Assembly: GCA_024399065.1 (NCBI GenBank)
Contig: JAKSIB010000009.1
Span: 1-64,000, forward strand
DNA from: Fibrobacter sp.
GTDB taxonomy: Bacteria > Fibrobacterota > Fibrobacteria > Fibrobacterales > Fibrobacteraceae
Length of the DNA: 64,000 nucleotides
Direction: 5' to 3'
The notes beneath the pieces were generated by a model. That model worked only from the letters and a program-made list of their open reading frames with translations, searched no databases and had not been told where the DNA came from. Both the position numbers and the translations under genes were made by a program. Shown here one piece after another: positions 16,698 to 55,168 of this stretch; the first letter of the stretch is position 1, and each line of letters opens with the position of its first letter.

Positions 16698-16703
16698 CTC
16701 GCG

Positions 16704-16752
16704 CGTCATCCTGAGCGTCCTCGCGCGTCATCCTGAGCGAAGCGAAGGATCT
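16704..16752. repeat. Tandem REP-like elements GTCATCCTGAGC...GAAGGATC
   Basis: A partial copy (GCGCGTCATCCTGAGCGTCC) is followed by a complete one, GTCATCCTGAGCGAAGCGAA then GGATC. They lie directly behind the sufB stop codon. Confidence 0.75.
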
Positions 16753-16766
16753 ATTTCCATGTTTTT

Positions 16767-16981
16767 TGTCACTAAACGTGAATTTCTCTAAGTTTAGTGA
16801 CACGATTTTTACTTTGTCTGCAAAGCAGCTTTAAAAGTTTTATCACCAAATCATCTAAAAGACCTAATTAGTGACAAACAAAGAGTCTTTTTTTATTACA
16901 ACTAACAAACAACCCGCCATTTTTAATTACTTTGTTTGAAATTTCTGTCACTAAACACACATTTTCTTGGATTTGGTGACA
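16767..16981. repeat. Array of three 36-base palindromes, TGTCACYAAA-N16-TTTRGTGACA
   Basis: Copies at 16767-16802, 16841-16876 and 16946-16981. Each is exactly 36 bases, with 10-base inverted arms and 16 unrelated bases between. The first has perfect arms (TGTCACTAAA/TTTAGTGACA); the second (TATCACCAAA/TAATTAGTGACA) and third (TGTCACTAAA/TTTGGTGACA) each have small changes. The starts are 74 and 105 bases apart. The array fills most of the 383-base gap between sufB and the DJ-1 gene, and no gene was found in it. Confidence 0.85.
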
Positions 16982-54122: not shown

Positions 54123-54357
54123 TTTTACGTACATAACCGGAGCTTTTGGCAAATTCTGTACGTAAATCGTTAGTTTGTACACAACGTAAGGCGCGGTGAG
54201 GCGGCCTTTTTACGTACATAATCCACGGAGATTCGCAAAAATGTACGTAATCAAACAGGAGCAACTTATTCACGCGAATCCGACAGCGCCAAATCAAAAG
54301 GATGCAGAGGCATTTTTACGTACAAAACCACAGCAAATTCAGCATTCTGTACGTAAA
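54123..54357. repeat. Array of three 44-base palindromes, TTTTACGTACA-N23-TGTACGTAAA
   Basis: Copies at 54123-54166, 54208-54251 and 54314-54357. Each is exactly 44 bases, with arms TTTACGTACA/TGTACGTAAA (last base A to T in copy 2) and 23 unrelated bases between. The starts are 85 and 106 bases apart. The third copy ends 2 bases before the stop codon of the convergent nuclease-like gene. A half-copy (TGTACACAACGTAAGG) lies at 54176. The 335-base gap between purC and that gene holds only the purC terminator and this array. Confidence 0.88.
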
Positions 54358-54358
54358 G

Positions 54359-55168
54359 TTACAACAAATGCACCCTCGCAAGGGTCTCCACCTCATGGAT
54401 AGACAGAGGCATTCTTTTGTTTTCCATAGTGAAAATCAAATTCTCCCCCAAGATGAATCCATTTTTTCCATAGGTACGCAACTTCAAAAGAACATTGCCC
54501 ACATAGTCTAAGTCATCCATCAAGCCAAAGTGTTCCCATACGATTTCTTTACGGGTCCGCACATTCAAGCAAACGAAATCTGGATGAATGCAAACCCCAT
54601 TTTTCAACTGGAGGGGAAACTCATAGCGAAAGGGAACTTCAAGACGCTCCAAAACCTCCGCAATGATGACCTCGGATTTTGACCGAACGCGGACATTTTG
54701 CGAAGTGTATAATTCTGAGTCTACCTCATTAAAGCTTAGCCCATCGAATTCAACAGCATTCCAGCATTCAGCAAAATATGCGTCGGAAACCACATGAGGT
54801 TCTATTAGCGCTTTTCTTTCAGCACTCGCCGCTTCAAAAAATTGAACCAAGCCCATTTCACTGTACCTGCGTTCAAAATTTTTTAGCAAATCCACCTGTT
54901 TCAAAATCTGCTTAAAAACTTTTTTGTCGTATGTTTTCTGAGCAAGTTCCTTTGCAAACTCCAAATCGTCCTTAGGGATATAATCACCAGGAGCAACCGT
55001 CTTAACATGATAGTATTGAGCAGACCCATTACTTTGCACAATACGCAATGTTCCTGCAGGAGATTTATTTATCAAAGTCCCAAGATGGCTGGCAAATCGA
55101 ACCAATTCAGCAATTCGTTTTCTAACCATAGGGACGATGCAATCAACAGAAAGTTGAACCTTCGTCAT
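54359..55168 (-). CDS. PD-(D/E)XK nuclease-like protein
   Basis: A 269-residue soluble protein. The C-terminal part has a nuclease-like pattern: SKSEVIIAEVLER helix, then IHPDFVCLN with D197, and VWEHFGLMDD with E212, followed by a Tyr/Lys-containing helix. This suits a PD-(D/E)XK-superfamily fold, though an exact catalytic lysine was not assigned. The N-terminal half is helical and of unknown role. ATG 55168 (MTKVQLSVD) was chosen; the open frame to 55300 upstream runs into another gene's terminator. No methylase or other restriction partner is adjacent. Confidence 0.6.
   Translation of the reverse strand: MTKVQLSVDCIVPMVRKRIAELVRFASHLGTLINKSPAGTLRIVQSNGSAQYYHVKTVAPGDYIPKDDLEFAKELAQKTYDKKVFKQILKQVDLLKNFERRYSEMGLVQFFEAASAERKALIEPHVVSDAYFAECWNAVEFDGLSFNEVDSELYTSQNVRVRSKSEVIIAEVLERLEVPFRYEFPLQLKNGVCIHPDFVCLNVRTRKEIVWEHFGLMDDLDYVGNVLLKLRTYGKNGFILGENLIFTMENKRMPLSIHEVETLARVHLL

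Follow-up and report, generated by a model that had tools for sequence, protein, structure and literature searches.

Does an array of palindromes that abuts a nuclease-like gene belong to that gene, or do the two lie together by coincidence? We met this question in a 64,000-nucleotide stretch of a Fibrobacter genome (the window; the genome is referred to as G000), where two arrays of three inverted repeats occur, one at 54 kb beside a gene of PD-(D/E)XK type and one at 16.8 kb (Table 1). The original prediction saw in them a class of sites, perhaps each with its own reader, and allowed that the nuclease could be a partner or a coincidence.

Table 1. Positions of the two arrays, the nuclease gene and its parts within the window.
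Feature	Position	Strand	Details
Solo array, palindrome 1	16769-16800	.	TCACTAAA / TTTAGTGA
Solo array, ACAAAGTAA motif	16809-16817	-	
Solo array, palindrome 2	16843-16874	.	TCACCAAA / ATTAGTGA
Solo array, ACAAAGTAA motif	16927-16935	-	
Solo array, palindrome 3	16948-16979	.	TCACTAAA / TTTGGTGA
54-kb array, palindrome 1	54124-54166	.	arms TTTACGTACA / TGTACGTAAA
54-kb array, directional motif ACAAACTAA	54170-54178	-	oriented like the nuclease gene; distance to the centre of palindrome 1, 29 bp
54-kb array, palindrome 2	54210-54250	.	arms TTACGTACAT / ATGTACGTAA
54-kb array, palindrome 3	54315-54357	.	arms TTTACGTACA / TGTACGTAAA
PD-(D/E)XK-type nuclease gene, 269 aa	54359-55168	-	partner of the array; conserved K164, E166, E183, D197, E212, H213
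C-terminal nuclease domain, residues 155-268	54365-54706	-	
N-terminal part, residues 1 to ~125	54794-55168	-	coiled coil with beta-hairpin
Proposed reading head, residues 40-58	54995-55051	-	predicted beta-hairpin 40-46/49-55; best co-variation with arms

The 54-kb array is real. It lies between the stop codon of purC (SAICAR synthetase by Pfam) and that of the minus-strand gene of 269 amino acids, and its third palindrome ends 1 base before the latter (54359-54361). Its three palindromes start 85 and 106 bp apart, as described beforehand, with unrelated spacers, common arms TTACGTACA/TGTACGTAA and loops of 14-23 bases. The exact copy length of 44 bases given earlier was not borne out, since the pairing of the middle copy extends less far and perfect arms give 43, 41 and 43 bp. 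The 16.8-kb array was also found as described, with three palindromes whose starts are 74 and 105 apart; it is a solo member of the class, without a nuclease neighbour, between genes that we take from their sequence to be SufB and DJ-1 (moxR and dnaA below are named in the same way). Adjoining it, CTCGCGCGTCATCCTGAGCG stands in tandem copy (16698-16739). The two arrays had been called unrelated, which holds only in part: the half-site core xYxAAA and an ACAAA(C/G)TAA motif are common to both. Searching the 3.82-Mb genome for TTACGTACA-N15..35-TGTACGTAA returned no further occurrence (reversed-pattern control 0), and among 80 Fibrobacter genomes the TTACGTACA arms were found in three only (G000, G092 and G094), always at the purC-side locus; neither search gave a trans array with these arms. 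A weakly DUF4261-like gene comes next after the nuclease gene. The neighbours, namely purC, this gene and a glycosyltransferase, include no cognate methyltransferase, and no defence system was seen beside the nuclease gene.

The nuclease protein matched no Pfam or NCBIfam model. AlphaFold2 gave a confident model (pLDDT 93.2), in which a helix (residues 11-35), a beta-hairpin (40-46/49-55) and a long helix (66-104) precede the PD-(D/E)XK domain, whose core fold and conserved acidic catalytic residues place it in that superfamily. The best structural matches of the nuclease domain were I-Bth0305I, Bax1, NGO0050 and Vsr at middling Z scores of 6.7-8.6; I-Bth0305I matched at Z 8.6 over 89 residues (2.6 A), with the others within 1-2 Z. 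The N-terminal part matched solely generic coiled coils, and the fold searches found no full-length relative with confidence. The nuclease domain also matches PDC-S68, a PADLOC defence candidate (E 8e-22 for the window protein and as low as 3e-30 for a relative), residues 155-265 of 269 aligning with profile positions 1102-1216 of 1221. However, PDC-S68 profiles span ~1200 aa, and the rest of that protein is missing from the 269-aa nuclease.

Although the gene had been regarded as an orphan, the window genome holds four members of its family. The family is present in 51 of 167 Fibrobacterota genomes at up to 8 copies per genome, and also in Treponema and Lachnospiraceae; a GTDB genome scan confirmed at least 581 relatives, and the 80 kept came from Fibrobacter, Treponema, Lachnospiraceae and a few others. 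We retrieved 120 Fibrobacterota members with their flanks, some split or partial matches being omitted. In total 201 members were collected, and all family counts below are based on the 174 distinct ones. Invariant stretches are VRSKSE..IA, PDF and WEH.G, and E166, D197, E212 and H213 are conserved in 172-174 of 174 members; because these nuclease residues are near-invariant, catalytic function seems to have been kept. In a quick tree all Fibrobacter members fell to one side of a branch (support 76), and members at the purC locus formed one clade. Mobility across phyla was rejected, as the tree does not mix Fibrobacter with other phyla. Carriage on phages or plasmids was rejected too, matches being few and mostly partial: 10 viral contigs (nuclease domain region only), 5 plasmids (partial) and 3 phage records, one of which reached 90% coverage at 27.5% identity. 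In the papers surveyed, this large rumen-bacterial nuclease gene family is undescribed.

Arrays are tightly linked to the family. With our looser detector, two or more same-arm palindromes lay within 700 bp of 144 of the 174 members, compared with 3 of 137 control regions. The stricter detector, limited to 500 bp, flagged 109/174 members against 0/174 shuffles and 3/140 control regions, the latter situated 1.8-2.3 kb away from members. The nuclease neighbour is thus a partner of the array rather than a coincidence. The array was upstream only in 105 members, downstream only in 23 (the window gene among them) and on both sides in 16, the arms being identical on both sides in all 16. In the remaining 30 it was undetected; the gene does therefore occur without a detected array, and 6 of these 30 (L038, L046, L048, L051, L054 and L059) belong to one seven-member clade. 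Arm sequence varies between members, with 62 arm words in 109 members, and palindromes per array range from 2 to ~10, so that three copies are no rule. Long near-identical direct repeats with palindromes inside stand on both sides of the gene in L143, L147, L223, L073, L067 and L144. The count of direct repeats, 26 of 168, is an upper bound for array repeats, since it includes protein-domain repeats, gene fragments and a tRNA pair. At L140 (G093:C23) a tRNA-Gly-like stretch of ~88 bp is repeated either side of the family member.

Moreover, the arrays are geometrically regular. Centre-to-centre spacings range from 5 to >20 helical turns and cluster at 53, 63-64, 74, 84-85, 95, 105-106, 127, 137 and 148 bp. 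With each of 62 arm words contributing one set, 161 spacings gave a Rayleigh R of 0.885 at a period of 10.5 bp, against a maximum of 0.265 over 2000 jittered sets, and 49 spacings in solo arrays gave R 0.936 at the same period. Chance as the origin of the array-nuclease pairing and of the phasing was rejected by these controls. Of the two conditions named at the outset as refuting the idea, irregular geometry is contradicted by the phasing, and nuclease genes that lack an array apply only in part, to the 30 of 174 members without a detected one. Each half-site consists of 5-6 member-variable bases and the core xYxAAA, the two half-sites of one palindrome lying ~3 helical turns apart. Between palindromes a directional motif, AYAAA(C/T/G)TAA, was observed 83 times against ~7 in mono-shuffled segments; it mostly runs in gene direction (79:12 in upstream arrays, 28:9 in downstream arrays) and stays in phase with the palindromes, at R values of about 0.62-0.64 where the null maxima are 0.43 and 0.38.

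Co-variation points to the part of the protein that may read the arms. In the 125 of 174 members whose half-site register was clear, the mutual information linking protein columns to variable half-site positions peaked at residues 40-58, the predicted beta-hairpin. The top 19-residue window begins at residue 40, and 0 of 300 permutations, in which arms were reassigned among 64 protein clusters, reached the observed value; single top-ranked columns occur elsewhere too, residues 93 and 252 among them. In a comparison of 7750 pairs, likeness of arms was correlated with N-terminal identity given C-terminal identity (partial r 0.185, null maximum 0.088), while the converse gave a partial r of 0.070 (null maximum 0.075). 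When C-terminal identity was at least 75%, arms were identical in 80% of pairs whose N-terminal parts were at least 85% alike, and in 18% where these were below 55%. From these patterns we strongly infer that the nuclease protein reads its own arms.

Natural allele pairs exhibit the same partition. One common locus is occupied by GGTTACTAA members in G000, G092 and G096 and by TCACTAAA members in G090, G091 and G093; between the two alleles the C-terminal parts are 88-97% identical and the N-terminal parts 48-53% (L299 of G091 standing outside the comparison). In other members, the counterpart of residues 1 to ~125 is exchanged along with the array. The pair L049/L075 diverges in DNA between positions -404 and +376 relative to the gene, a segment with array, promoter and ~125 codons, whereas the flanks and the 3′ part are 90-98% identical; a further ~170 bp upstream of -467 likewise fails to align. 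In L109/L079 the exchange covers -589 to +159, which comprises the array and ~53 codons with the hairpin included; the flanks are 97.6-98.7% identical, and over the remaining gene the identity is 87.7% for DNA and 97% for protein. Such allelic exchange of a recognition domain is found in the HsdS specificity subunits of Type I restriction-modification systems, whose target-recognition domains undergo fast allelic exchange beside a conserved catalytic part. Here, however, the nuclease gene has no adjacent methyltransferase or motor subunit, and the recognised array is swapped along with the domain. In lambdoid phage immunity regions the DNA-binding domain of the repressor and its operators are swapped as one cassette that sets specificity. 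The present cassettes likewise unite a presumed DNA-reading domain with its sites, but the protein here is a PD-(D/E)XK nuclease encoded on bacterial chromosomes, with arrays downstream and in trans as well. That the array changes in step with the apparent reading part suggests a swappable DNA-address system of a new kind. Taken together, linkage, 10.5-bp phasing, co-variation of arms and hairpin, and joint swaps support the idea of a class of sites, perhaps each with its own reader. Our main reading, to which we assign a probability of about 0.6, is that of a one-gene, address-specific nuclease module whose arms would be read by the N-terminal part and whose role is most likely of the conflict type.

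Arrays also occur away from the nuclease genes. Of 80 genomes, 10 had TCACTAAA arms (the reversed-pattern control matched 3 other genomes, one each), 6 had GGTTACTAA arms and 9 had TAGGACTAA arms, the latter two with controls of 0. The window genome contains 7 GGTTACTAA palindromes at three places, one of which adjoins a family member, and TAGGACTAA palindromes number 31 in G102 and 20 in G091, the places named being a minimum. In G102 the TAGGACTAA solo arrays L341-L345 (contig C2) resemble growth by internal tandem duplication, for example with a period of 191 bp, the helical register being kept. No family member lay within 20 retrieved solo loci. We sampled 30 of 77 DJ-1 matches and 30 of 74 dnaA matches: an array was present at 6 of 14 nuclease-bearing DJ-1 loci and 0 of 16 without (automatic calls, with G117 doubtful and the array-bearing G092 missed), and at 1 of 17 nuclease-bearing dnaA loci and 0 of 13 without. 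By eye, arms had no clear decay where the cognate nuclease was absent. Solo arrays within one genome mostly lack common spacers. Dispersed palindromes outside genes and cognate to a protein are also a property of REP/REPIN sequences with their TnpA-REP (RAYT) proteins, where palindromes flank the gene and relatives are dispersed between genes (PMC3116915, PMC8266576). The present family resembles these in having palindromes beside the gene and related, dispersed intergenic ones, but differs in its PD-(D/E)XK domain in place of an HUH Y1 transposase, in its few arrays per genome with mostly unshared spacers and in its helical phasing.

These positions bear on a rather doubtful alternative, namely a protein that is chiefly a repressor, with its operator in the cis array and the operators of other genes in the solo arrays. 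Upstream-only arrays in 105 of 174 members would fit, as would the position of the 16.8-kb array 102 bp upstream of DJ-1 and the joint swapping of arms and recognition domain, which recalls phage repressors and operators. However, 23 members, including the window gene, have a downstream array only, and the catalytic residues are near-invariant. Moreover, of the 21 solo arrays classified after exclusion of contig-end arrays, orthologous repeats and single palindromes, 10 are flanked by convergent genes, as are 7 of 39 background gaps. A promoter is not expected in such a place, and a pure operator reading is thereby weakened.

Solo arrays appear to have been rewritten in place as well, their arms at SufB/DJ-1 differing between species. 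The SufB/DJ-1 array has TCACTAAA arms in G000, G070, G091, G092 and G093. In G096 it has GGTTACTAA arms, the same as the G096 nuclease, and this intergenic DNA has no BLAST match to that of G000. Yet the geometry is kept within 1 bp, with palindrome starts at 0/74/180 in G096 against 0/74/179 in G000 and motif starts at 43/161 against 42/160. A third version of the arms occurs at this locus in G090, where there are two palindromes. Arrays are not always matched to the resident protein, because G000 combines a GGTTACTAA allele with a TCACTAAA solo array and G091 the reverse; we read this as the allele changing first and the arrays lagging behind, which may explain both mismatches.

The history of insertion concerns a second alternative, also unlikely in our judgement, in which the family is a mobile, homing-type selfish element: the nuclease would cut arrays or gene ends, gene and array would be copied in, and solo arrays would be vacated sites or array-only copies. 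Occupied and empty versions of purC sites both exist, I-Bth0305I, a homing endonuclease, is among the best matches of the catalytic domain, and some genes are flanked by direct-repeat arrays, besides the identical arms in two-sided members. At two sites, moxR and purC, the 3′ end of the target gene is recoded and the old end lies beyond the insert. But duplicated gene ends are rare, a systematic search flagging 11 of 174 loci against 0 controls, mostly repeats; an array was present at 0 of 20 empty moxR sites; spacers are mostly unshared among solo arrays of one genome, and the tree shows no exchange between Fibrobacter and other phyla.

At L111 (G069:C3:39951-46718) a gene for a moxR-type AAA ATPase, intact and recoded at its 3′ end, is followed by an acyltransferase gene, the nuclease with its array and then the old moxR 3′ end as a fragment; G136 represents the empty site, and in G102 a unit similar to the L111 insert lies elsewhere, together with a moxR fragment. 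At L247 (purC locus, G096:C5) three copies of the purC 3′ end surround the nuclease unit, the first of them recoded. A general duplication of target 3′ ends was rejected, the convincing cases being moxR (L111) and, by eye, purC (L247). An array acting as a pre-existing homing site was likewise unsupported, since the empty purC and moxR sites examined had none. Divergence in place explains much, because the purC members form one clade. Insertion took place at some point, which falls short of showing that the array serves this purpose. Free-standing and EDxHD/Vsr-type homing endonucleases (PMC6083498; structure 3r3p) may be comparable, given a catalytic domain of similar fold (Z 8.6 over 89 residues, other nucleases scoring within 1-2 Z), a single intergenic gene and recoded target ends at two loci. 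Unlike them, the present family has its own phased array, target duplication is not general and empty moxR sites are array-less.

Helical register suggests assembly on DNA, and SlmA and MatP bring loci together through their sites. A factor of chromosome architecture, by which loci would be brought together through a small number of phased arrays in each genome, often located at the 3′ ends of genes, accords with the dispersal of the arrays, their strict phasing and the conserved geometry at orthologous loci. We nevertheless consider it improbable, as presence is patchy (51/167 genomes), up to 8 paralogues per genome have separate arms and the address changes fast. The res sites of serine resolvases consist of three dimer sites in helical register. 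To judge from sequence, the arrays resemble them in having about three phased palindromic sites, presumably for dimers, that may act as one complex; they differ in member-specific arms and spacings of 5 to >20 turns, and a recombinase is absent, no serine recombinase domain being found in the 269-aa protein. Least probable by far is that the palindromes act after transcription as RNA hairpins or guide-RNA-like repeats, a reading that their inverted repeats with loops of 14-23 bases would allow but that is disfavoured, relative to a DNA-bound same-face assembly, by the register of motif and palindromes, by 10.5-bp units over 5 to >20 turns with no obvious meaning in RNA and by arrays on either side of the gene.

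We therefore return to the address-specific nuclease module. At the level of sequence, linkage, phasing, co-variation, cassette swaps and trans arrays can be considered established; the steps that follow are a proposal. The N-terminal coiled coil with its beta-hairpin would read the half-site, that is the 5-6 variable bases and the core xYxAAA. One palindrome would be covered by one dimer, each hairpin taking one half-site, if binding is direct and the protein dimeric. The whole-turn spacing of palindromes and motif may let several dimers join on a single face of the DNA, which they might loop or wrap, and the nuclease would remain poised on this complex. Same-arm arrays elsewhere in the genome could serve as additional docking sites, and array and recognition domain, moving together as a cassette, would allow one locus to switch address. 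The least certain step is the role, for which conflict, either defence-like or selfish, is most likely: a docked conflict nuclease would be regulated or restrained by its own arrays, and conflict would drive the fast change of address. We favour this over regulation, and then over selfish spread, because catalytic residues are conserved, presence is patchy and addresses are exchanged rapidly. If a nuclease sits on the chromosome and no modifying enzyme accompanies it, some restraint would presumably be needed. A tentative extension, possible rather than likely, is a self-address system in which the nuclease knows only arrays with its private arms, sits on them, in cis as well as in trans, as a phased and restrained complex, and would act on DNA or cells in which arrays are missing or mismatched; new addresses would arise by a cassette swap of the array with ~53-125 codons, after which solo arrays would be rewritten at fixed geometry.

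The literature that we surveyed on palindromic arrays, homing endonucleases, PDC-S68 and REP/RAYT, a body from which subscription journals were mostly absent, gave no description of such a system. The family is in effect a library supplied by nature: dozens of different DNA-reading domains, each adjacent to its probable target sequence. Near-isogenic swaps indicate the residues that set the target, and a protein-DNA recognition code is thereby directly testable. Moreover, it raises a question about conflict in rumen bacteria, namely what leads a nuclease to maintain, on the chromosome of its host, docking sites of its own that are helically phased and change rapidly in sequence.
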